A DNA stretch of 64,000 bases from Escallonia rubra (lineage: Eukaryota; Streptophyta; Magnoliopsida; Escalloniales; Escalloniaceae): the NCBI GenBank assembly GCA_033065855.1, contig JAVXUO010001342.1, forward strand, positions 22,418 through 86,417. The letters are read 5' to 3'. This document shows, piece by piece, positions 7,854 through 32,462 of the stretch. Below the pieces are notes generated by a model. The model saw only the letters and a list, made by a program, of their open reading frames with translations, was not told the DNA's origin and made no database searches. A program made the position numbers and the translations under genes. The number at the start of each line of letters is the position of its first letter. Within the stretch, counting starts at the first letter, position 1.

Positions 7854-7915
7854 GAGGAATGAGCATACAGGTGTGGGTACTTTATCTTTAGCCTGTCTTG
7901 CATTTGTTGTATGCC

Positions 7916-8341
7916 ATGAGGAGCCTCTTTCTTTTGCCCGTTCTCGCACTTTGCCTTATTTCAACCACCTCTGCTAACGTGCTGGTTCCATACTACGAGG
8001 TTCATGTCGTTAACGCGCTCCCTTACGAGTCCCAGTATCTGCAAGTTCATTGCGCGTCTAAGGATGATGATATTGGGTATCACACGCTCTATCTTGGTGA
8101 CGAAATCCATTGGCGCTTCAAAGTCGGTTTTTTCCCCTCGACTCTTTTCTTCTGCCACTTTTGGTGGAACTCGAAGGACAAAGCTTTCATCGTCTTCGAA
8201 AAGGAAAATTCATTAATGTGCAAACGTCATATGTTTGCATCCACTCTTTACTGCTATTGGTATGTAAAGGATGATGGTTTTTATTTTTCAAACTACTATA
8301 CCAATAATTCTGCAAATTGGAATAAAAAGCAAAACTGGTAA
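7916..8341 (+). CDS. S-protein homologue (plant self-incompatibility S1 family), copy A
   Basis: A single-exon gene of 141 residues. I chose the ATG at 7916; an upstream in-frame extension lacks an ATG and opens directly into the hydrophobic signal peptide only from this start. Residues 1-20 (RSLFLLPVLALCLIS, then TTSA) form a secretion signal, with cleavage probably after Ala20. The mature part has the S1 hallmarks: LQVHCASKDDDIGYH, a W-x-F (WRF), TLFFCHFWW, four cysteines that could form two disulphides, and YWYVKDDGFYFS near the C-terminus. Length and layout fit the family (about 110-130 mature residues). Papaver PrsS, a family member, is the stigma self-incompatibility ligand; most SPH proteins elsewhere are secreted, of unknown role and often floral. 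No operon-like context applies. The reading frame is intact, so the gene may be active. Confidence 0.93.
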   Translation: MRSLFLLPVLALCLISTTSANVLVPYYEVHVVNALPYESQYLQVHCASKDDDIGYHTLYLGDEIHWRFKVGFFPSTLFFCHFWWNSKDKAFIVFEKENSLMCKRHMFASTLYCYWYVKDDGFYFSNYYTNNSANWNKKQNW

Positions 8342-15359: not shown

Positions 15360-17081
15360 AGTCTAGTCCAGTCAATTACTTGGGCTCAGTCCAGTCCATT
15401 TAAGTGGGTCCATTCCATGTGTCAAGAGTTACTACTTAGAAGATGATATCCAATTATGGTACACCCGTTCTGATAAAATCGAAGATAATTATTGAATTAA
15501 GGGTAGATAATGTCCCGAAATTTGGAAAAACAATTTAAAATTTACGGCATTAATCGGCCGATTTTCGACTAACCAGCCAATTAGTTGACTTCTCTCGGTT
15601 TGCGATTTCTATCAAATATTTTACTTTATCTCCAGATCACAGATTGAGATGGTCGTCTAAATATGGCATTTGGGTTACATTTTTAAGAGTTAACTTTTTC
15701 TCCCTATAGAGTTTTTATAAGGTTTCTCTCTCGAAAGTGGTAGATCATTTCTTAAAAGAATTTAGCATTTCATATTCCTTTCTATATATCTTTCAGCCAC
15801 TTGCATTGTGGATCCTTCACAAAGTGCTCCCGCCGTCTTCTAGGCAAGCGCACTCGCGAGTTATATTTATTGCTTTCTAGGTCTAGGCCACTTTCACATA
15901 ATGGTCTAGAGAATTTCCCTTCCCCGCGATCATATTTCCATTAAGCAAAAACTATAAAAAGAATCTTTTCGATTCATTTCTTAGTTCGAATCTAAGACCA
16001 AAATGTAGGTCGCCTTCCGTTCGGTCCAAATCGAACTACGATGGTTTTGATTATGTTTTGTCCGACTAGATGCGTAGGCCATATGACCACTATTGTCGAT
16101 TTCAAACCAATAAGGAGAGTTGAATTAGGATAAGGAGAGTTGAATTAGGATAAGTTTTATTGTATATTTACATGTTAAAAAGCCAAAAGTAACACATTCT
16201 TGTTTTGTAACTTAGTCCCCGTACCATTTTTCTATTTTTAGACCCTTTTCCAAGATCTGGCGATTTTTTTTTGAGGCGGTTTGCTACATTAGCAGTGCAC
16301 TATTTTAGGAATATAGATGTTACAAAACATGTTTTTAGTACTTAGAGGAATTCAGGTGTAGTGAATTAGATGCGATAACTAATTACTACCAAAAATCTAC
16401 CTAGGAGAATTGAGAAAAAGAAAAAAGAGAGAAGATCGATGTACCTATACAATTTACCTACACGACGTGCCGTTGGGACATCTTTGGCTATAGCTGATTA
16501 AATATCTATCCCCACGATGCAATGCGTGCCAACGAAAATACTAACCGAAAGTATATATGTTCCCACGGCATCAACCGTCAAAATACACTCAGAAACAATA
16601 TTGGAAAAAAAAAAGAAATTAGTTAATCCCCTGCAAAAAAAAAAAAATTTAAAAAGAAAGAGAAATTAGTTAATCCACGGCAATATGCTGACAGTATAAC
16701 CGTAGGATCAAGTCTGAAATACCGTCTGGCATAACTTAGGGTTTTAATTACCCAGAAAAAGCTTCAAAACGCTAATGCTTTTATGCTTTTGGCAGGGTCT
16801 TCCATGGTCTTCAAACGTCTGGCATCTCCCATTTCATGTATCTAACCAAGATTATCCTCCTCCCATATGGGAGGAGGATAAGAATTGTTGGCATATTAAG
16901 TCTATGAGGTCAATGTCAAACATAAGATCTTATACTTATGATATTGCTAGTATCCTGGCAGATTATGAAAACTACTGATTCTAAATTTCTGGTTTTGAAC
17001 ATAGTTTTCACGTCAGCAGTTTAAATAGACGAATGAACATACCAATGTGGGCTACAGCCTGTGTTGCATTTGTTGTATGCC

Positions 17082-17507
17082 ATGACAAGCCTCTATCTCT
17101 TGCCCGTCCTGGCCCTTTGCCTCATTTCAACCACCTCTGCTAACGTGCTGGCTCCATACTACGAGGTTCATGTTGTTAACGCGCTCCCTTACGAAGCTCA
17201 GTTTCTGCAAGTTCATTGCGCGTCTAAGGATGACGATATTGGGTATCACGAGATCTATCTAGGTGAGGAAATTCATTGGCGCTTCAGAGTCGGTATTTTT
17301 CATGCAACCCTTTTCTTCTGCCACTTTTGGTGGAACACAAAGGACAAATCTTTCGTCGTCTTCAAAAAGGAGAATTTCATGGTGTGCCAACATCGTATGT
17401 TTGCATCCACTTTTTACTGCTATTGGTATGTAAGGGATGATGGTTTTTATTTTTCAAACTACTATACCAATAATTCTGCAAATTGGGAAAAAAAGCAAAA
17501 CTGGTAA
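17082..17507 (+). CDS. S-protein homologue (plant self-incompatibility S1 family), copy B
   Basis: Intact single-exon paralogue of the gene at 7916, also 141 residues. By hand alignment without gaps, 116 of 141 residues match (25 differences). The signal peptide (TSLYLLPVLALCLIS), all four cysteines, HCASKDDDIGYH, WRF, FFCHFWW and DDGFYFSNYYTNN are kept. Differences cluster in the middle, in the stretch between FWWN and MFAST (EKENSLMCKRH against KKENFMVCQHR), while the ends are nearly invariant. The ATG at 17082 corresponds to the start chosen for copy A. The product should be secreted with the same fold. Retention of two open frames while surrounding DNA gains insertions and deletions suggests selection, but I have not measured substitution rates. 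Confidence 0.93.
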   Translation: MTSLYLLPVLALCLISTTSANVLAPYYEVHVVNALPYEAQFLQVHCASKDDDIGYHEIYLGEEIHWRFRVGIFHATLFFCHFWWNTKDKSFVVFKKENFMVCQHRMFASTFYCYWYVRDDGFYFSNYYTNNSANWEKKQNW

Positions 17508-18265: not shown

Positions 18266-21060
18266 TCCCAACTCTCGACATGGATGGGCCTCAATGGGTT
18301 CAATGTAATCATAAGTTTTCAATCCCTAAGCCTCTTTACCTCGAACAGCAGTGAATCAACTATATTAATGGTAGTTGTCATCAAGAAGAGAAAACTCATC
18401 TCTTTCAATCCTGGTGACCTCATTGAGAATCACACGCATCTGACTTCAAATACCTTAAGTTATACATCTGCTACCTCCAACGCTCCCAATAACCCATGCT
18501 CCCACTAAAAAGACTCAGGTTTCTTCAAACCCAAGCTTTGCACCTATATTATTACTCTGTGCTACAACTCCCTTATTGCTAGGGTTTTTTTTTTTTTTTT
18601 TTTTTGTGGCTCTTATTTTGGCAACTAGCTTATCTTTCCTATAATAACCCTCACAAATGAAAGCAACCCAAATAGCTTGCCACCTCTAGCCCTAACACCC
18701 CCTCTCAAAAAGAGATGCACCGTTTCTTTTACGAAAATAGATGATGCTCATCACCTTCTATGCAATGCTCAAGCTAGCCTACCCAACCATATGGCACGAA
18801 AAACCATCGTCGCCTTTCTCGACATTTATATTGGCTCCTTGACTATGAAAAACTTTTTTGGACACAAAATATGAAAGCGAAATGGATAAAAGGCGGCAAC
18901 AAAATACCAAACACTTTCATACCACAACTCAGATACACATAGCTCACAACCGAATAAATGGAATATACAGCAGTAACAGTTATTGGTGCACAAAGGAGGA
19001 TGAAATTATGGTTTCCTATGGAAACCACCCATGATGTATCAAAAATGCCGAGAGCTCATGAAACAAGACATCACTTCAGGGGTTCTTTCCTTCCTCAACT
19101 CTGGTCATCTGCTCTCTGAAGCTAACTTCTCTTATATTTCACTAATACTAAAAAACTGAACCTAGGATACCCCTCTGGCTTCAAGCCTACAAGCTTGTAT
19201 AACACTATCTACTGGATATCCTCCAAAGTTCTTGCCAATAGACTTCAAAGAATCGTCCCTTCCAACATTTCTCCTTTTCAAAATGCCTTTGTTAAAGACA
19301 GAACCGTAACTGATAACATCCGCATTGCCCAAGAACTGACCATCTTAATCCGAACCAAAAAGAATGACATGCAAGACCTAGCAGCACTCAATAGACATGA
19401 GCAAAGCTTTTGAGCATTTACGTTGGGATTTCACCCGAGCAGTGCTCATCAAACTTCAACTTCCTCTTCATCGGGTTCGATTCGTCATACAATGCGTTAC
19501 AACTGTATCCTTTGCAATTTTGATCAATAAGTCACCATTCAAGAGAATTCATCCTAAGTGTGATATAAGACAAGAAGACCTAATCTCACATTTTCAATTT
19601 GTTATTTGCTCTGAAGTCCTATCTGCAGCACTAGTCAAAGCAGAATATCTCAAAGGAATATGTGGCATCAAATCAAGCATCTCTGCCCCGCCAATAGATC
19701 ATCTTATGCTTGCAGACGACACACTCATCTTCTTCCAGATTAACTTTCGGAATTGCGAGACTGTCAAACTAATCTTGGATCAATATTGCAATATTTCAGA
19801 ACAAGTCATCAACCTCTGAAAAACGTCCTTATTTTACAGCCCTGACATGCTTGAACATGCCTCAAATTGTCTTAGCATCAAGATCGAAACAAAGTTTGGG
19901 CTATATCTTGGAAGCTCTCTTGATGTTGTGACCAACTGGAGAGATATTTTCCAAGATCTTATCCAAAAAGTTCAGTCTAGGTGTGCCGGTTGGAAGGGAC
20001 ACCTCCTCAATAGAGCTGGACGCGCAACTCTCATTTCTTCGAACACCTACTGGTCTACCATATGCAATCTTCATTTTCCCTGTCTACGTCTGTCAAAAAC
20101 TAAATTCAAATTTTAGTTCCCTTTTTTTTTTTGACCAGTGGCTGTAATAAGCAAAATCTTCATCATGTCCATTGGCACACACTTTGTGGCCAAAGACTAA
20201 TGGAGGTTTAGGTTTTAATGACAAGAGGCTGGAAAATCCTCACTCAGCCGGACCTTCTTCTAGCTAAAGTCTTTCTTGCTAAATACTACAGGCGCCACAA
20301 GTTCCTCCACACATCAAAAACCAACTACTCGTCTTGGGCTTGGAAAAGTATTCAGGCAAGCATCTATCTTCTAAATCTGAGTCTGTCACGGCAAATTGGT
20401 GATGGATCTACAGTGGTTATATGGAAAGACAATTGGATACCTGGCCACCCACCTCATCTCTTGATGCCTTTCAGAACTGTTGCTCCTGAAAACAGAACGG
20501 TCTCAGAGTTTATTTTATCTCGTCATTGGAAGGATCAGGCCCTTCTTGATCTATTTCTAACCCAAATTATTAAGAGAATCAAAGGGATTCAAATCTCCCC
20601 TTTAGGAGCCTCAGACTCACCCATCTAGATCATGAAATTTCAGGGAAAATAAATCGCCTAGATCATGAAATTTCTCAGTCTCAACTGCGTATAATCTTTT
20701 GCACATCGAGAAAATAAATCGCCTAGATCATGAAATTTCAGGGATTTTCTCAGTCTCAGCTAATCCTCCACCCGCCTCCTTGGATTCTCTAGAAGAATCA
20801 ACTCATCATCTTTTCCTTTCTTGCTCCAAGAATACCTCCATTTGGAACTCCTTAAATTTGATTGTACCCCAAAATGTGGGCCATTAATCTTTTAAGGAAT
20901 GGCTCATTGCTTGGATTTCTATCCTCAACTCCTCTCACTCATCTCGGCTTCGTAACATAATACTCGTCACTCTTTGGCGTACTTGGAATTTTCCGAACGA
21001 GGACTGGAATTCAAACGGCATCAGGGCCCTGCGAAGTTAGCTGTATAACACCTACTGGGC
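18266..21060 (+). pseudogene. LINE (non-LTR retrotransposon) reverse transcriptase relic
   Basis: Broken frames on the plus strand give a plant L1-type pol. 19195-19390 carries SSKVLANRLQ..VP and SPFQNAFVKDR..TDNI, the start of the reverse transcriptase domain. 19397-19819 carries MSKAFEHLRW (the first catalytic Asp precedes it) and LADDTLIFF, the [Y/F]xDD box with Leu for the aromatic residue. 19847-20116 and 20218-20628 carry the thumb and the downstream domain (GDGSTVVIWKDNWIPG). The zinc-finger RVT region follows to about 21060. At least five frame breaks and stops, plus a triplicated ATCATGAAATTTC block (20630-20740), make it inactive. The 5' portion (18266-18620) is also present in unit A. 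Confidence 0.85.
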
Positions 21061-23160: not shown

Positions 23161-23281
23161 TCTATATATATATATTTATTTATTTATTTATTTATTTATT
23201 TCTTTAAAAATGTTGACTTATAATTCGTTTATTAAATCTATATATCACCTTCTTAAAGCTGACTTTCCTATGTCTGTTACG

Positions 23282-23335
<54 letters not shown>

Positions 23336-23377
23336 GGCCCGATCCACACCCACCGGTGGATAAAAAAATTTTCTCCA

Positions 23378-23626
23378 CCCAACCGCTTGTAAGACAAGCG
23401 GTTGGGTACGGTTTCTTTTTTCTCCTTGGCCCCACCACAAAAAGCACTTATTTTTTTATTTTGCCCAACCGCATGTAAGAGAAGCGGTTGGGTATGATTA
23501 TTTTTTGACGTGGGCCCACCACAAAAAACCACTCCACCCAACCGCTTCTCTTAGAAGCGGTTGGTAAGCACTTTTTTTTTTAACAATTTTTTAAAAAAAC
23601 CAACCGCATATAAGAGAAGCGGTTGG
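23378..23626. repeat. four subterminal imperfect palindromes, left arm
   Basis: Four hairpins of the form (C)CCAACCGC...GCGGTTGG(G) lie at 23378-23406, 23464-23492, 23537-23564 and 23600-23626. Spacing between them varies. Their stems are 8-12 bp and loops differ. Confidence 0.85.
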
Positions 23627-23711
23627 TGGTATTTTTTTGGGTGGCTCCCGCACAAAACTTTTAAGATTTTTTGGTTGGTCACAAAAAAAAAAAAAATTTT
23701 TGGAGACAAGC

Positions 23712-24120
23712 CTGCCACGTGGCCTCCTCCGCGCCTGCCACGTGGCCCAACCGGGTGAAGGGACGCCGGTTGGTGCGCTGCCCTGCCACGTGGCCTCCCC
23801 CGCGCCTGCCACGTGGCCCAACCGGGTGAAGGGTCGCCGGTTGCCGTGCCGCCTGGCCCCCACGCGCCTGCCGCGTGGCCTCCACGCGCCTGCCACGTGG
23901 CCCAACCGTGTGAAGGGACGCCGGTTGCCTGTCGCGTGGCCTCCACGCGCTGCCACGTGGCCTCCACGCGCCTGCCACGTGGCCAACGCGGGAAGGTGCG
24001 CTGGTTGGTGCGATGGCGGTGCCACATGGCCTCCCCCGCGCCTGCCACGTGGCCCAACCGCGTGAAGGTGCCCCGCGGGTTGCCCTCTCCTTCTGCCACG
24101 TGGCGCCCCCCACGCGCCTG
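23712..24120. promoter_or_regulatory. CACGTG / CACGCGC array, left arm
   Basis: Nine CACGTG (G-box) palindromes, mostly as GCCACGTGGC, and five CACGCGC heptamers (starting 23861, 23883, 23944, 23965 and 24111) lie in about 400 bp. They are mixed with CCCAACCG..TGAAGG..GCCGGTTG units. CACGCGC is the known binding site of FHY3/FAR1, which descend from MULE transposases of this type; CACGTG binds bZIP and bHLH factors. The array lies about 130-540 bp upstream of the arm's TATA box, so it could be both transposase-binding site and enhancer. That function is inferred. Confidence 0.8.
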
Positions 24121-24252
24121 ATGCTCCCCGTGACTGTCCTTCCCTCCCCGTGACTGTCCTTTTGCAGAGTCTTTTTTTTTCGCGCCAAGACCACTCACGG
24201 GTTTTTTTTCTGCAGAGACCCTCTTTTTTCTTCTCTCTTCCTTTTTCTTCTC

Positions 24253-24262
24253 TATTTATAAT
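24253..24262 (+). promoter_or_regulatory. inward TATA box, left arm
   Basis: TATTTATAA lies in a pyrimidine-rich promoter, with transcription expected about 30 bp downstream (about 24285-24295). The leader leads to a consensus splice donor, CAG|GTAAGT, at 24410/24411. The matching acceptor just before the transposase ATG is TTTTTTAG at 26409 (or CAG at 26416), which would give a 5'-UTR intron of about 2 kb. Confidence 0.65.
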
Positions 24263-24524
24263 CCCCTCCCCCCAACCATTCTTCTCCACATTTCTGCTCT
24301 GCTCCGCACTTTTTCTCCACAAACCAACAAATTTTAGCGCTAGAAGAAGATCGGTGGATAATCGCTAGAAGATCGATAGATTTTTCTTCAAATACATCAA
24401 GTCACAACAGGTAAGTATTTTGAATTTCCTTATAATTCAATGTTAGGTTTATACAAATCAGCGTATTACACTTAGCGTATTACATTTATAGCGATTCAAA
24501 ATAGCGTATTACATTACATTTATA

Positions 24525-25155
24525 GACAGCTTTTTCACGGATTTATAAAAAATAGCTAGAGCGAGATTTTGCCAAAGTACAAAAAAGAGACCCTAGTTAT
24601 TCTGAAAGGATCTGTATCAGGTAAAAATTTCAGATTTTTCCAAGCACTGTAGAGGGGCTAACTGCTACGGGGAACCGTGTACCTTCGCAGTCTAATTTAA
24701 AATACCAAGCTAGCGCGATTTCGCGCGAAACTTTTACGAGAACCCTAGGATGTTGGGAAGTTCCATTCCCCAGGATTTCGCGCCATTCCGGAGCCGTTAG
24801 CTATTTTTTTGCCCGAACGGCCCTTTCAGCGCTCGCCCTTTAATTAGACAGCTTTTTCACGGATTTATAAAAAATAGCTAGAGCGAGATTTTGCCAAAGT
24901 ACAAAAAAGAGACCCTAGTTATTCTGAAAGGATCTGTATCAGGTAAAAATTTCAGATTTTTCCAAGCACTGTAGAGGGGCTAACTGCTACGGGGAACCGT
25001 GTACCTTCGCAGTCTAATTTAAAATACCAAGCTAGCGCTACGAGAACCCTAGGATGTTGGGAAGTTCCATTCCCCAGGATTTCGCGCCATTCCGGAGCCG
25101 TTAGCTATTTTTTTCCCCGAACGGCCCTTTCCGCACTCGATCCGGACACCGGTTC
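24525..25155. repeat. 322-bp tandem repeat, two copies, left arm
   Basis: Copies start at GACAGCTTTTTCACGG at 24525 and 24847 (period 322). The second has a small internal deletion (about 18 bp around the GCGCGATTTCGCGCG palindrome). The array lies inside the predicted leader intron. Confidence 0.9.
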
Positions 25156-25376
25156 GCGATTTTTGCGCGAAAAATCCGTAAAGTACTTTTTAGGCCAATG
25201 ATGAACTCACGAAGCGTAAAGTAGCATTTCGAGGCACCTTTTAGATTTTTCCTGATGACAGGGGCATTTCGGTAATTTGCCACCCCGCGAGGGGTGTTTC
25301 GGTAATTTTCCCGCGCCGAGTTTTTAATTACACATTTTTATTCCAGAAATGTAATCACAGAACCTGAAATGTTGTT

Positions 25377-26302
25377 TTGAAGCTGGTTCGGGGCCGTTGG
25401 GGTGATAGTGAACCCCCGGGGGCATTTCGGTAATTTGCCGCTCATCGGGGGCTATTTTGCTAGGAAGGATCCAGCTTGAAGGGCCATACTTTAAAATAAC
25501 TTTTAGTTCAGCAAAGGGTGTCAGACACCCGAAAACTTTTATTGTTCCGGGTGAATTCAGGAACTTGTGACGCACCGGCGATGACTGCCAGGGGGTATTT
25601 TGCATAAGCTAGCGGGTGTTTTGGTAACTTTCCCCCTTTAAATTTTTTCCTGATATATTTGGTATATATTTGACGTAATACATTTAAAAACTCAACTTCA
25701 AAGCGGTTTTGAGGTCTTGGGGGTGTAGGGGCCATCGGGGGGTATATTGCTATATAACCACGTTGGCGTGAAATTCAGTGAGAACTAGCGTAATTAAGCG
25801 TTCACCGATTGGTGGGAAGTGAGGATTTGTTTTAATACATTGAAATAATGACTATTGCTAATGCGTTGGTAAGCTACGTTAAAGATCCAGAAATGTTGGT
25901 TACCCCCTGGGGCATTTCGGTAATTTGCCGCTCATCGGGAGCTATTTTGTTAGGAAGGATCCAGCTTAAAGGGCCATACCTTAAAATAACTTTTAGTTCA
26001 GCAAAGGGTGTCAGACACCCAAAAAGTTATTTTGTCCCGGATGAATTCAGGAAGCTTAAAATGCCGTTTCAAAGCACTCCGAACGATTTTTTGATGCCAG
26101 GGGGCATTTTTTGGTAATTCGCAGCCCCGAGGGGGGTATTTTCGTAATTTTGCAGCGTTAAGTTTTTTAAAGGAGTTCTTAGTCCAGAAATGTAAGCAAA
26201 GCACCTAAAAGGTTGTTTTCAAGCTGATTTGGGACGTTAGGGTGATAATGAACTCCCCGGGGGCATTTTGCTAATTTGCCCCCGTCGGGGGCTATTTTGA
26301 TA
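25377..26302. repeat. degenerate direct repeats between left arm and gene
   Basis: A block in the arm (25377-25529: CGGGGGCATTTCGGTAATTT, GGAAGGATCCAGCTT, AGCAAAGGGTGTCAGACACC) recurs at about 25889-26020, and its first part recurs again at about 26199-26302. The word GGGCATTTCGGTAATTTGCC recurs several times. Confidence 0.75.
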
Positions 26303-26423
26303 ATTTTACATTATACAAATTTTTCCAGCAATTACGTTTAAATAATTTTTATTCTTCTTTTATTTAATTCTATGACTTGTTGATAATCGTATTGGTTTTT
26401 ATTTTTTAGATTTCAGTATAAAT

Positions 26424-28717
26424 ATGGATGCAACTGGAGGAAATATTTTTTGTGAAGGTTCTGATCCACCTTACTTGGGTCAAATTTTCCAAACACTGGA
26501 CGAAGTCGAAGCATACTACAGAGCATATTCAAAAACGATGGGTTTCGGTATTAGAACTAAGACGACTAGAAAACGGGTGAATACCGATCAAATTGGTGCA
26601 AGGTTATTTGAGTGTCATAGAGGAGCACCGCATGTACCCCCGTCGTTCAGATCAGTGACGAAGGGACAACAAGACAAAGAAAACGAGACACATTTCCGAG
26701 TACCGGCTGCAAAGCCCATGTGTATGCAGTACACCGGAAAAATGAAAACCATTGGGTTGTGACGGGTGTGGAGTTGAGCCATAATCATCAGTTTTGCACC
26801 CCTAGTATGATTGGTCAAATTCATCAACACCGAGAAATAAGCGCGGCACACAGACAACTGATTTCAACAATGGCCGACGCTAAAATATCACCTTCTAAGA
26901 TGATGGGGGTTTTCTCAAGCCAGGCTGGGGGGATTGACAAGTTGACTTTCAACGACGTTGACCTTCGAAATGAACTCCGTGCTCAGAGGAGAGAGTCTTT
27001 CGGTCAGATCGATTCTCAAGCTACACTTGATATCTTCAGGTGCCTTCAGAGTGAGAATTCTGGATTTTTCTACAGTCTCCAAGTGGATGATGAGGGCCGC
27101 ATTAGTACTATATTTTGGGCGGACCCCCGTTCTAGAGCTGCTTACCAAAATTTTGGGGATGTTGTGACGTTTGACACCACATACCGCATCAATAAGTACT
27201 CTATGCCTTTTGCTCCGTTCACCGGGGTGAACCACCACTATCAGTCAATCTCATTTGGCTTTGCCCTGCTTAGGGATGAGACGGAGGAGTCATTTACGTG
27301 GTTATTTGAAACGTGGCTTCAAGCAATGTATCATATTCCTCCAAAGACCATCATCACTGACCAAGATCTGGCAATGAAAAATGCAATCGCTAAGGTCCTT
27401 CCAGATACTCACCATGGCCTGTGCACGTGGCACATAAGCAACAAATATCCCGAACGGCTTCACAATGTATATGCAAAGCATCCGGAATTCAAGACTGACT
27501 TTAATACATGTGTGAAGAAATCGTTGACGGTAGACGTGTTCGAGGAGAGGTGGGCCACGTTAATGGATGACTACGGTTTGCACAATCATGGATGGTTAAA
27601 ATCGTTGTATGAGATCAAGACACAGTGGGTCGGTGCCTACACCAAGAAGTTTTTTGCAGCCGGAATGACTACGACATCGAGAAGCGAAGCTATGAATTCA
27701 TTCTTCGATGGGTACGTAGGCCAGTCTTCAAGTATAGCGGAGTTTGTACTAGAGATGCAGAAAGCCCTTGAGAGGCAATTGTACCGTGACAGAAAAGACG
27801 ACGCCGCTACAGTTTACAAAGAAAAAGCCATACTACTTCGTTCACCATTGGAGGCTCATGCGGCTCAAGTCTATACGAAGGAAATGTTTCGACAGTTTCA
27901 AGAGGAACTATTAAAGTCGAATCAATATAGCATGACAAAGTTGCACGAGTTTTCCACCAGAGATCTCAAGGTTTATGCTTTTAAACACGTGACGAATTAT
28001 GCCAACCCGTGCTCTGCGACGACTCAGACGAACAGAAGACATTTTACCGTAGCTAAATGTATGGACACCGGGTTGGTAAATTGCAACTGTCAATTGTTTG
28101 AGCATAAAGTTATATTTTGTTGACATGAGTTGAAGTTTTTGAACGCCAAGAATGCAACTAAAATCCCACCACAGTATATCTTGGAACGGTGGACGAAGGA
28201 AGCCAATAGAGTCCACGGTCACATTCCTTACGTGCCCAGTGTTTCATCAGATTTCAGGCAATCTGAGGCGCTGCGATATAATCATCTTTGTAACATCATG
28301 CACGGTTTATCAATGGATGCAGCGTCAACATTTGATGGGTACACTTATCAAGTTGAAGCAGCCGCACGGGATCATGCTAAGCATGCACAGTTTAGGATGG
28401 CATTACCAGAAAGCCGGGACCATCGACCGACTCCAGCCGGTAGATTCAATCGAGCCAAACAGCCAGTCATTGACGGCACTAGCATGCAAGGTGAGGAGGA
28501 CGACAAGGTTTTTGATCCAATTATTTCTCAAACAAAAGGGCGAAAACGAGAAATGCGCATGAAGAATCCGATTGAAAAAGCAACGGGTCAAAAAAAATTG
28601 CGAAAGTGTGCGTTGTGTAATAAGATGACTGATCATGACAAGAGAAACCATTATAAAGTGTTAGGTCTCGCACCTGGCAGTATGGTCGAGGAGGACGATG
28701 AGGAGGAAGAGTGTTAG
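26424..28717 (+). pseudogene. FAR1/FHY3-type Mutator-like transposase with two lesions
   Basis: About 764 codons. The N-terminal FAR1 DNA-binding domain (26424-26815) has DEVEAYYRAYSKTMGFGIR and later TGCKA.V, WVVT and SHNH. It is split: the first part reads in one frame and TGCKA onward in another, so a small indel lies in about 26640-26700. The MULE catalytic domain follows with the presumed DDE residues at FDTTY (27173-27175), TDQD (27359-27361) and SRSEAMN (27686-27688), plus the conserved CTWHI. The SWIM zinc finger (CNCQLFE...FC-stop-HELKF) is interrupted by TGA at 28121-28123, where relatives have CRH; a single CGA-to-TGA transition explains it. The C-terminal part (28130-28717) continues in frame, has a small CxxC...H knuckle (CALCNKMTDHDKRNH) and an acidic tail. 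Apart from these lesions the frame is open, so inactivation is recent. Confidence 0.93.
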
Positions 28718-28762
28718 GGTTAATGTTTCAGTTGTATAACGAATAACTTTTATAATGTTTAA

Positions 28763-28840
28763 ATTTGTGATTTGATTTGTTGAATCTTTAATTTGTGATT
28801 TGATTTGTTGAATCTTTAATTTGTGATTTGGTTTGTGGAT
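28763..28840. repeat. 28-bp tandem repeat, about 2.8 copies
   Basis: ATTTGTGATTTGATTTGTTG starts at 28763 and 28791, with a partial copy at 28819, just 3' of the transposase stop. Confidence 0.9.
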
Positions 28841-28939
28841 TATTGAAAATTTTTGAATGGCATATTCGCGCACGCTTTAGCGCCCAGTTCATAGCTTCCT
28901 GAAAAATCTTGTAATTTGTTTTGTTCATTGCACTTTAGG

Positions 28940-29196
28940 CACGCTTTAGGGGCCAATTCATAACGTTCGAAAAATCTTGTAAATTTTTTAGTCACTTTTT
29001 TTTCGCTCATTGCACATGAGGCGCGCTAGTTAGTCCATTCTTATGTATTTCGGCGAAAAATGAGACACGTTATTTTTTCGGTTTTCCTATGAAGGGCCTA
29101 TTCGGGCACACTTTAGGGGCCAATTCATAACGTTCGAAAAATCTTGTAAATTTTTTAGTCACTTTTTTTTCGCTTATCGCACATGAGGCGCGCTAG
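28940..29196. repeat. about 95-bp direct duplication, 167 bp apart
   Basis: The block CTTTAGGGGCCAATTCATAA through CACATGAGGCGCGCTAGTTA occurs at 28944-29033 and again at 29111-29200, immediately before the right arm. Confidence 0.85.
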
Positions 29197-29712
29197 TTAT
29201 CAGGAAAAAATTTAAAGGGGGAAAGTTACCAAAACACCCGCTAGCTTATGCAAAATACCCCCTGGCAGTCATCGCCGGTGCGTCACAAGTTCCTGAATTC
29301 ACCCGGAACAATAAAATTTTTCGGGTGTCTGATACCCTTTGCTGAACTAAAAGTTATTTTAAGGTATGGCCCTTCAAGGCTGGATCCTTCCTAGCAAAAT
29401 AGCCCCCGATGAGCGGTAAATTACCGAAATGCCCCCGGGGGTTCACTATCACCCCAACGGCCCCGAACCAGCTTCAAAACAACATTTCAGGTTCTGTGAT
29501 TACATTCCTGGAATAAAAATGTGTAATTAAAAACTCGGCGCGGGAAAATTACCGAAACACCCCTCGCGGGGTGGCAAATTACCGAAATGCCCCTGGCATC
29601 AGGAAAAATCTAAAAGGTGCCTCGAAATGCTACTTTACGCTTCGTGAGTTCATCATCGGCCTAAAAAGTACTTTACGGATTTTTCGCGCAAAAATCGCGA
29701 ACCGGTGTCCGG

Positions 29713-30991
29713 ATCGAGCGCGGAAAGGGCCGTTCGGGCAAAAAAATAGCTAACGGCTCCGGAATGGCGCGAAATCCTGGGGAATGGAACTTCCCAACAT
29801 CCTAGGGTTCTCGTAAAAGTTTCGCGCGAAATCGCGCTAGCTTGGTATTTTAAATTAGACTGCGAAGGTACACGGTTCCCCGTAGCAGTTAGCCCCTCTA
29901 CAGTGCTTGGAAAAATCTGAAATTTTTACCTGATACAGATCCTTTCAGAATAACTAGGGTCCCTGTTTTGCACTTTGGCCAAATCACGCTCTAGCTATTG
30001 TTTATAAATCCGTGAAAAAGCTGTCTAATTAAAGGGCGAGCGCGGAAAGGGCCGTTCGGGGAAAAAAATAGCTAACGGCTCCGGAATGGCGCGAAATCCT
30101 GGGGAATGGAACTTCCCAACATCCTAGGGTTCTCGTAAAAGTTTCGCGCGAAATCGCGCTAGCTTGGTATTTTAAATTAGACTGCGAAGGTACACGGTTC
30201 CCCGTAGCAGTTAGCCCCTCTACAGTGCTTGGAAAAATCTGAAATTTTTACCTGATACAGATCCTTTCATAATAACTAGGGTCTCTTTTTTGTACTTTGG
30301 CAAAATCTCACTCTAGCTATTTTTTATAAATCCGTGAAAAAGCTGTCTAATTAAAGGGCGAGCGCTGAAAGGGCCGTTCGGGCAAAGAATTAGCTAACGG
30401 CTCCGGAATGGCGCGAAATCCTGGGGAATGGAACTTCCCAACATCCTAGGGTTCTCGTAAAAGTTTCGCGCGAAATCGCGCTAGCTTGGTATTTTAAATT
30501 AGACTGCGAAGGTACACGGTTCCCCGTAGCAGTTAGCCCCTCTACAGTCCTTGGAAAAATCTGAAATTTTTACCTGATACAGATCCTTTCAGAATAACTA
30601 GGGTCTCTTTTTTGTACTTTGGCAAAATCTCGCTCTAGCTATTTTTTATAAATCCGTGAAAAAGCTGTCTAATTAAAGGGCGAGCGCTGAAAGGGCCGTT
30701 CGGGCAAAAAAATAGCTAACGGCTCCGGAATGGCGCGAAATCCTGGGGAATGGAACTTCCCAACATCCTAGGGTTCTCGTAAAAGTTTCGCGCGAAATCG
30801 CGCTAGCTTGGTATTTTAAATTAGACTGCGAAGGTACACGGTTTCCCGTAGCAGTTAGCCCCTCTACAGTGCTTGGAAAAATCTGAAATTTTTACCTGAT
30901 ACAGATCCTTTCAGAATAACTAGGGTCTCTTTTTTGTACTTTGGCAAAATCTCGCTCTAGCTATTGTTTATAAATCCGTGAAAAAGCTGTC
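29713..30991. repeat. 322-bp tandem repeat, four copies, right arm
   Basis: The landmark AAGCTGTC recurs at exact 322-bp steps: GCTGTC starts at 30020, 30342, 30664 and 30986. The copies are nearly identical, more alike than an ancient array would be. Confidence 0.92.
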
Positions 30992-31254
30992 TATAAATGT
31001 AATGTAATACGCTATTTTGAATCGCTATAAATGTAATACGTTAAGTGTAATACGCTGATTTGTATAAACCTAACATTGAATTATAAGGAAATTCAAAATA
31101 CTTACCTGTTGTGACTTGATGTATTTGAAGAAAAATCTATCGATCTTCTAGCGATTATCCACCGATCTTCTTCTAGCGCTAAAATTTGTTGGTTTGTGGA
31201 GAAAAAGTGCGGAGCAGAGCAGAAATGTGGAGAAGAATGGTTGGGGGGAGGGGA

Positions 31255-31263
31255 TTATAAATA
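31255..31263 (-). promoter_or_regulatory. inward TATA box, right arm
   Basis: Mirror image of the left-arm promoter: TTATAAATA on the plus strand reads TATTTATAA on the minus. The splice donor is also preserved (ACTTACCTGTTG at about 31100-31111 reads CAACAG|GTAAGT on the minus strand). A transcript from here would run antisense through the transposase. Confidence 0.6.
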
Positions 31264-31375
31264 GAGAAGAAAAAGGAAGAGAGAAGAAAAAAGAGGGTCT
31301 CTGTAGAAAAAAAACCCGTGAGTGGTCTTGGCGCGAAAAAAAAAGACTCTGCAAAAGGACAGTCACGGGGAGCAT

Positions 31376-31764
31376 CAAGCGCGTGGGGGGCGCCACGTGG
31401 TAGAAGGAGAGGGCAACCCGCGGGGCACCTTCACGCGGTTGGGCCACGTGGCAGGCGCGGGGGAGGCCACGTGGCACCGCCATCGCACCAACCGGCGCAC
31501 CTTCCCGCGTTGGCCACGTGGCAGGCGCGTGGAGGCCACGTGGCAGCGCGTGGAGGCCACGCGACAGGCAACCGGCGTCCCTTCACACGGTTGGGCCACG
31601 TGGCAGGCGCGTGGAGGCCACGCGGCAGGGCAACCGGTGCCCCTTCACCCGGTTGGGCCACGTGGCAGGCGCGGGGGAGGCCACGTGGCAGGGCAGCGCA
31701 CCAACCGGCGTCCCTTCACCCGGTTGGGCCACGTGGCAGGCGCGGAGGAGGCCACGTGGCAGGC
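31376..31764. promoter_or_regulatory. CACGTG / CACGCGC array, right arm
   Basis: I count ten CACGTG and four GCGCGTG (CACGCGC on the minus strand; starts 31379, 31525, 31546 and 31607). Small length differences from the left array exist around 31615-31640. Confidence 0.8.
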
Positions 31765-31852
31765 TTGTCTCCAAATTTTTTTTTTTTTTTTTTTTTGTGA
31801 CCAACCAAAAAATCTTAAAAGTTTTGTGCGGGAGCCACCCAAAAAAATACCA

Positions 31853-32101
31853 CCAACCGCTTCTCTTATATGCGGTTAGTTTTTTAAAAAAATTGTTAAA
31901 AAAAAAAGTGCTTACCAACCGCTTCTAAGAGAAGCGGTTGGGTGGAGTGGTTTTTTGTGGTGGGCCCACGTCAAAAAATAATCATACCCAACCGCTTCTC
32001 TTACATGCGGTTGGGCAAAATAAAAAAATAAGTGCTCTTTGTGGTGGGGCCAAGGAGAAAAAAGAAACCGTACCCAACCGCTTGTCTTACAAGCGGTTGG
32101 G
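31853..32101. repeat. four subterminal imperfect palindromes, right arm
   Basis: Mirror of the left-arm set, at about 31853-31878 (one stem base changed), 31916-31942, 31987-32015 and 32073-32101. Confidence 0.85.
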
Positions 32102-32462
32102 TGGAGAAAATTTTTTTATCCACCGGTGGGTGTGGATCGGGCCCCTATATATATATATATAACACGTAACATACATAAGAAAGTCATCTTTAATAATGTG
32201 ATATATAGATTTAATAAAGAAATTATAAGTCAACATTTTTAAATAAGACCTCACGACCACCAAACTGATTATATCCCATATATAAGAATTTAGAAAACAA
32301 ATCAAACTCTTTACTACGATTTATTGTTGAAAAATTCATATTATAATTATCGCGATATTTTTAAACCTTATAAATATCAATTGTAAAACATTTAAACTCT
32401 ATGCTACAGACGTATTTACGTATTAGGCTCTGATTTTGACTATTAAAACCTTGATTAGATTG

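Follow-up and report, generated by a model that had tools for sequence, protein, structure and literature searches.

A TA-targeting family of FAR1-type MULEs in Escallonia rubra with G-box arrays upstream of predicted core promoters in its long inverted arms

According to the parts of the literature consulted here, the terminal inverted repeats (TIRs) of the maize transposon MuDR hold promoters together with enhancer motifs (PMC3310237), and MuTAnT and AutoMuTAnT of Medicago truncatula are Mutator-like elements (MULEs) of TA microsatellites with GGGG ends, a 9-bp target site duplication and a Jittery-like transposase (PMC4486113). The heptamer CACGCGC is described as the binding site of FHY3/FAR1 (PMC6000157, PMC8599713, PMC13306707), which interact with HY5 and PIFs (PMC13306707); FRS12, another member of the family, is described as binding other motifs (PMC6000157). 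A FAR1-type MULE located upstream of a rice gene goes with more light-dependent expression (PMC4178011), a parallel that is only a loose one. The stretch analyzed here, 64,000 nucleotides of an Escallonia rubra contig (JAVXUO010001342.1) that we refer to as the window, includes a FAR1-type MULE at 23334..32145, a member of what we call family A. Its inverted arms carry arrays of the G-box CACGTG and of CACGCGC. In the literature searched, as judged by titles, abstract starts and some passages, no paper was found that reports such arrays, of either motif, for the arms of a MULE.

We consider it probable that family A is a TA-targeting MULE family whose arms are made of palindromes, a G-box activating array and a core promoter, and that CACGCGC is a mere spacer variant. 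The outermost part of each arm, with the terminal sequence and palindromes of the form CCAACCG..CGGTTGG, would be gripped by the transposase. Next inward would come an array of 7-27 palindromic G-boxes of the form TGCCACGTGGC, and then the core promoter with its TATA box, leader and splice donor; the two arms would drive convergent genes, one for a FAR1-MULE-SWIM transposase and, in long copies, one for an Ulp1-type protease. The array may serve as an upstream activating region to which bZIP or bHLH factors of the host bind, and would in this way couple expression of the transposase to signals of the host, for instance light or abscisic acid (ABA), and the heptamer would lie between the G-boxes as a variant of the spacer and not as a conserved transposase site. 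bZIP factors bind strongly to the sequence GCCACGTGGC, and G-boxes are also targets of bHLH proteins of the PIF type; GBF, HY5, ABI5 or PIF proteins are candidate binders. Who binds what, the working of the promoters and activation by the array are all read here from sequence features.

G-box arrays and predicted arm promoters in family A

The left arm of the window copy includes an array at 23711..24117 (forward strand) with nine CACGTG and five CACGCGC, and the right arm one at 31379..31763 (reverse strand) with ten and four, which are exactly the counts given by the first-pass annotation of this DNA. Enrichment against shuffled sequence, a check proposed at that time, was run on array stretches of 470 and 440 bases, and none of 1000 dinucleotide shuffles reached any of the counts. 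A chance origin of the counts was rejected on this basis, although the control is a weak one that overstates the case for the heptamer because both motifs sit in tandem repeats (periods 71, 84 and 22), and unit amplification accounts for much of the motif excess. The arrays being tandemly repeated, comparison from copy to copy and with a sister family is the better test.

A search of the genome (566 Mb) for copies of the arm, which had also been proposed, used the terminal 367 bases as query and returned 463 candidate places; 40 of these were scored, and 37 of the 40 arms were read (C2492, C186 and C2013 were left out). G-box arrays of 7-27 CACGTG are present in all 37, the first G-box lying 355-452 bases inside the element end, and the number of array units differs also between the two arms of one element. 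CACGCGC is found in 1-8 copies in 35 of the 37; in both heptamer-free arms, the opposite arm of the same element has one. In the 35 heptamer-bearing arms it always lies at least 498 bases from the element end. The array zones of the family-A arms total 456 CACGTG and 100 CACGCGC. Two further arms, located upstream of open transposase frames, have 17 and 11 CACGTG with 10 and 3 CACGCGC, respectively; the arm beside a transposase of 91% identity (L078) was left out of the arm counts, its sequence lying within the leader intron. The terminal 21-mer, allowing up to two mismatches, is found 271 times per strand (542 in total), and the reversed pattern not once.

In the copies compared, the usual distance between G-boxes is 22-23 or 47-51 bases, and the conserved block of the array is TGCCACGTGGC. 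When a base is counted only if the remainder of the 13-mer CTGCCACGTGGCC has at most two mismatches, nine of the 11 bases of this block vary by 0.2-1.4%, the exceptions being A6 of the 13-mer (5.2%, almost always changed to G) and the final C (3.8%), while the bases directly outside vary by 10-12% and several spacer positions in the same array units by 8-35%. The commonest short spacer between G-boxes is GCCTCCCCCGCGCCTGC. CACGCGC occupies 47 of about 215 gaps of up to 26 bases and one of 160 gaps of 27-53 bases, 35 of its 100 copies are found in 43 gaps of at least 60 bases, and 17 lie beyond the last G-box. The wide gaps seem to be places where one G-box decayed. Within the 22-base spacer class that holds the heptamer, per-base variation at the heptamer is 1-5%, at several positions below that of the 23-base class.

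Downstream of each array lies a putative core promoter. The window copy has the TATA box TATTTATAA at 24253..24261 (forward strand) in the left arm and a TATA box at 31255..31263 (reverse strand, pointing inward) in the right arm, both of presumed function. They are followed by a conserved presumed 5' leader, of which a sequence word is found in 29 of the 37 family-A arms, and by the splice-donor-like sequence GTAAGT (24411..24416, forward strand, in the left arm), which is conserved in family A and in the sister family described below. A leader intron would run from this GTAAGT to an acceptor near 26409-26416; leader, acceptor and start site of the arm transcripts are all predictions. An exact TATTTATAA is present in 28 arms, and in these the distance from the last G-box down to it is 136-229 bases (median 181); given this steady distance, the G-boxes have the look of sites that activate the arm promoters from upstream. 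Since the dense arrays stand directly upstream of conserved core promoters, the arms could act as G-box-driven promoters or enhancers. As architecture this reading is well supported, and as function it is unproven; the earlier suggestion that such elements can carry light-response enhancers therefore stands in its architectural part only.

A sister family as control

The genome includes a second family (family B; L052 and L060-L076); its element in L052 and L060 ends in GGGGATCGATCCCCATCGACCGGTGGGA. The family-B end pattern, allowing up to three mismatches, gave 177 + 166 = 343 matches, and its reversed control gave none. The family-B transposase, read in copy C3112, is 89.8% identical to that of family A over 500 amino acids, a 113-residue N-terminal piece is 91% identical, and its FAR1 region is frame-broken near the same spot as that of the window copy. 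From the exact matches listed, 17 of the 343 ends, belonging to 16 elements (15 forward-strand ends and both ends of C3112), were picked and read over their first 1294-1300 bases. Family B has the same TATA region, leader and GTAAGT; the leader word is present in six of the 17 arms, and the 11 others are probably gene-less derivatives. CACGCGC was found in none of the 17 arms (about 1300 bases each), and CACGTG is missing from 15 and present once in each of the other two. Arms without the heptamer have multiplied, whichever family's transposase moves family B. Mobile relatives lacking the heptamer, the observation named beforehand as speaking against a role of CACGCGC in transposition, are therefore at hand, with no heptamer in the 17 arms of a family with 343 ends.

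A common property of the two families is a set of palindromes near the ends. The left terminal zone of the window copy (23379..23670) includes four of the form CCAACCG..CGGTTGG, starting at 23379, 23465, 23538 and 23600, which are candidate transposase sites, and in each of the 37 family-A arms three to five of them start within the first 350 bases. A counterpart with the spelling CCAATCG..CGATTGG is found in 13 of the 17 family-B arms, and four arms lack any. The spellings are nearly pure (238 of 241 in family A, 29 of 29 in family B, close to zero in shuffled sequence), and both halves of the palindrome differ in step between the families. That the two halves change together would be expected of a site read by a dimer, or of a hairpin. 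CCAACCG/CGGTTGG, and CCAATCG/CGATTGG in family B, would be better candidates for the transposase site than CACGCGC.

These observations bear on an alternative in which the G-box palindromes themselves are the transposase-binding sites, a long array helping the FAR1-domain transposase to find or pair the arms and its position at the promoter being secondary. The array is indeed present in every family-A arm read, including the two beside open transposase frames; a perfect G-box palindrome would suit a dimer, and G-box and CACGCGC have CACG in common. Furthermore, among the exact matches listed (of the 542) no facing ends lie less than about 5 kb apart, and no short array-free derivative was found there. 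We nevertheless regard this alternative as unlikely, since family B, whose transposase is 90% identical, shows 343 end matches although none of its 17 arms read contains an array, and since the array begins well inside the end while the CCAAYCG palindromes, whose halves differ in step, lie nearer to it.

It is more improbable still that the arrays are functionless, a GC-rich minisatellite that grew by slippage in one ancestor and was copied along with the family. Their tandem structure and the number of G-boxes, variable across arms and unequal between the arms of one element, would fit such an origin, but the G-box block is nearly invariant in the very units in which several neighboring spacer positions vary by 8-35%, and the position of the array upstream of the TATA box is steady.

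The idea that CACGCGC is the ancestral transposase-binding site whose specificity was inherited by FHY3/FAR1, which the first-pass annotation had put forward as the origin of the host motif, is the least probable of all: it is favored by the heptamer in 35 of the 37 family-A arms (with one in the partner of each heptamer-free arm), by the 10 and 3 copies beside open transposase frames, by the low variation in the 22-base spacer class and by the 35 of 100 copies in wide gaps, but is opposed by the absence of the heptamer from the 17 family-B arms, from two family-A arms and from the first 498 bases of all family-A arms read, its rarity in the gaps of up to 53 bases, a FAR1 domain 25% identical to that of FHY3 in a transposase that falls in a separate clade, and the other motifs of FRS12 (PMC6000157). 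This origin of the heptamer is not supported; the heptamer may still have some function.

Several points weigh against the preferred reading of the array as a host-driven activating region. Nine of the 37 family-A arms lack the exact spelling TATTTATAA, and the connection with light is drawn from what is generally known of G-boxes. It may also be that the transposase binds the G-boxes and that family B has lost such sites or exchanged them for others. Even in the absence of selection, a motif can stay uniform through concerted evolution of tandem units, to which the 8-35% variation at several spacer positions of the same units can be opposed. Lastly, near-identical transposase matches on different contigs may in part be duplicate assemblies of one locus.

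We tentatively propose, as an idea that may well prove wrong, that the sister families kept the core promoter and a nearly identical transposase but swapped the upstream control block, with up to 27 G-boxes per arm in family A and almost none in family B; that family A has in this way put its transposase and protease under G-box signals of the host, light or ABA, and has spread hundreds of G-box promoters into TA repeats; and that transposase and CCAAYCG palindromes drift together as a separate recognition pair that coevolves. The comparison turns a suggestive motif count into a case in which the swapping of promoter modules between two abundant sister families of transposons can be tested. 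Should the array respond to light or ABA, this genome would hold hundreds of mobile promoters of the G-box kind, and their own transposase would be induced by that signal as well. In addition, the comparison shows that the motif of a transcription factor in the arms of a related transposon need not be a transposase site, the sister family serving as control, and the paired CCAACCG/CCAATCG palindromes offer a concrete target for finding where a FAR1-domain transposase binds.

Limits, insertion site and genes of the element

The window copy extends from 23334 to 32145, with ends GGGGCCCGATCC and GGATCGGGCCCC that are the same or nearly the same in the 37 family-A arms read. Its left arm (23334..25655, forward strand) and right arm (29198..32145, reverse strand) are long terminal inverted repeats about 99% complementary to each other, in blocks of 895, 437, 363 and 275 bases. 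A 322-base unit (29715-30993) is present in four copies in the right arm and in fewer in the left; given the identity of about 99% elsewhere in the arms, a recent change in the length of one of them is probable.

The limits 23203..32243 originally assigned to the element proved too wide and were rejected, since the outer inverted repeats of about 100 bases are only 91% alike, compared to 99% for the inner arms, and the outer sequence is met with elsewhere inside a different repeat. The flanks consist of a TA microsatellite adjoining the left end (23287..23333), which was the insertion target, and of pieces of a separate host repeat, one at 23203..23300 and its inverted partner, with TA repeat, at 32146..32243. 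Of 343 candidate places for the outer sequence 40 were scored, two of them those of the window and 38 elsewhere, and in L049, L050 and L051 the host repeat shows TA at the corresponding point and no family-A element. Because of this recurrence, the element most probably inserted into a TA microsatellite flanked by two pieces of the host repeat that were older, diverged and inverted relative to each other. In L052 a different, related element sits inside the same TA stretch. The host repeat is a high-copy one, and in separate copies of it this site has been the target of at least two distinct TA-targeting families.

The preference for (TA)n is general: TA adjoins 36 of the 37 family-A arms and all 17 family-B arms, compared to 119 of 20000 stretches drawn at random from the window. 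Although the target duplication of the window copy is unreadable because the copy sits in TA repeats, the family-A copy C2600, which lies outside TA, is flanked by an exact 9-bp duplication, AAGTTTATA. The MULE domain, the long arms and this 9-bp duplication identify the element as a MULE.

The transposase gene (26424..28717, forward strand) is broken in the window copy by a frameshift inside the FAR1 domain and by a stop codon in the SWIM finger (28121-28123); intact copies are found elsewhere in the genome. Its product shows a MULE domain (PF10551, E 5e-32) and an RNaseH-like one. The FAR1 domain is divided between two frames, and of its halves one scores just above the Pfam cut-off and the other just below. 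In the intact family-A copies L036 and L033 both FAR1 (PF03101) and SWIM (PF04434) are above cut-off and the MULE domain is present too (E 1e-32 in L036). The original identification of a FAR1-type MULE with a FAR1 domain in its own transposase was thus borne out, even though the window copy is frame-broken. Among 3870 candidate matches in the same genome the 86 that were scored are all 91-100% identical, and 66 of these have open, stop-free frames of 768-780 amino acids. This identity and the mostly open frames suggest an abundant and recently active transposase family.

When a 500-amino-acid piece of the transposase was compared to 5.8 billion proteins, the top matches were mostly 45-50% identical over most of its length, and many of them are named FRS5-like, from Daucus or Apium. 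A tree of the same piece was built by a quick method with 132 rows (131 of the 120 + 120 proteins listed were used). The element, on a long branch, joins 31 other rows, many of them FRS5-like from Daucus or Apium (SH-aLRT 100), and 15 FHY3 rows make up a group of their own (SH-aLRT 100), so in this tree the transposase has no place inside the FHY3 clade. The FAR1 domain of the intact family-A copies is 25% identical to that of FHY3 and 27% to that of FRS5. A sequence search for relatives of solved structure found none (best E 0.26).

The second gene encodes an Ulp1-type C48 protease, whose domain (PF02902, E 4.7e-6) was detected in the family-B copy L060 at bases 1187-2380. Homologues, some of them in pieces, are present in all seven family-A copies of more than 11 kb that were searched (L032, L034, L036, L039, L041, L043 and L045), and none was found in three shorter copies, that of the window included. 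In the long copies the transposase and protease genes are convergent.

As for the surroundings of the element, 7892-8341 and 17037-17507 encode two similar small secreted-looking proteins that resemble, by eye, plant S1 self-incompatibility homologues, and reading frames at 19382-20628, upstream of the element, look by eye like a decayed non-LTR reverse transcriptase. A Pfam search of two window open reading frames near 47 kb returned no family.

Comparison with known systems

The FARE foldback elements of Arabidopsis, reportedly described by Windsor and Waddell in 2000, are said to have long, modular, palindrome-rich arms of about 550 bp and large multi-gene copies. In behavior, the only level at which the two are compared, family A resembles them in its long modular palindrome-rich inverted arms and its large copies with several genes, and differs in the length of its arms, which exceed 2 kb. 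We know of no G-box array in FARE arms.

The FAR1-MULE-SWIM order of the transposase is also that of the FHY3/FAR1/FRS factors (described in part in PMC6000157 and PMC13306707). Unlike FHY3/FAR1, the transposase groups with FRS5-like proteins, outside the FHY3 clade.

The behavior of family A can be likened to that of MuTAnT, with which it has in common TA repeats as target, GGGG ends, a 9-bp duplication, modular foldback arms and a Jittery-like transposase (PMC4486113). AutoMuTAnT is given as 4.9 kb long and most of its relatives as 200-300 bp (PMC4486113), whereas family A ranges over 5-15 kb with arms of more than 2 kb; family A also has G-box arrays and a protease, neither of which is mentioned in the portion of the MuTAnT description consulted (PMC4486113).

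The C48 protease gene places family A among the ULP1-carrying MULEs. As in the KI-MULEs and the melon MULEs, a mudrA-like transposase is combined with an Ulp1 domain, which in KI-MULEs is in reverse orientation, but KI-MULEs are described as non-TIR elements, as far as the consulted text goes (PMC2528002), while family A has very long TIRs. Mu TIRs are reported to be short, about 200 bp (PMC4178011), compared to the very long arms of family A. Like MuDR, family A has two convergent genes that would be driven from TIR promoters, with enhancer motifs within the TIR (PMC3310237); in MuDR, according to the passages used, these are cell-cycle enhancer motifs and the second gene is mudrB (PMC3310237), whereas in family A the corresponding parts are G-box arrays and a C48 protease.

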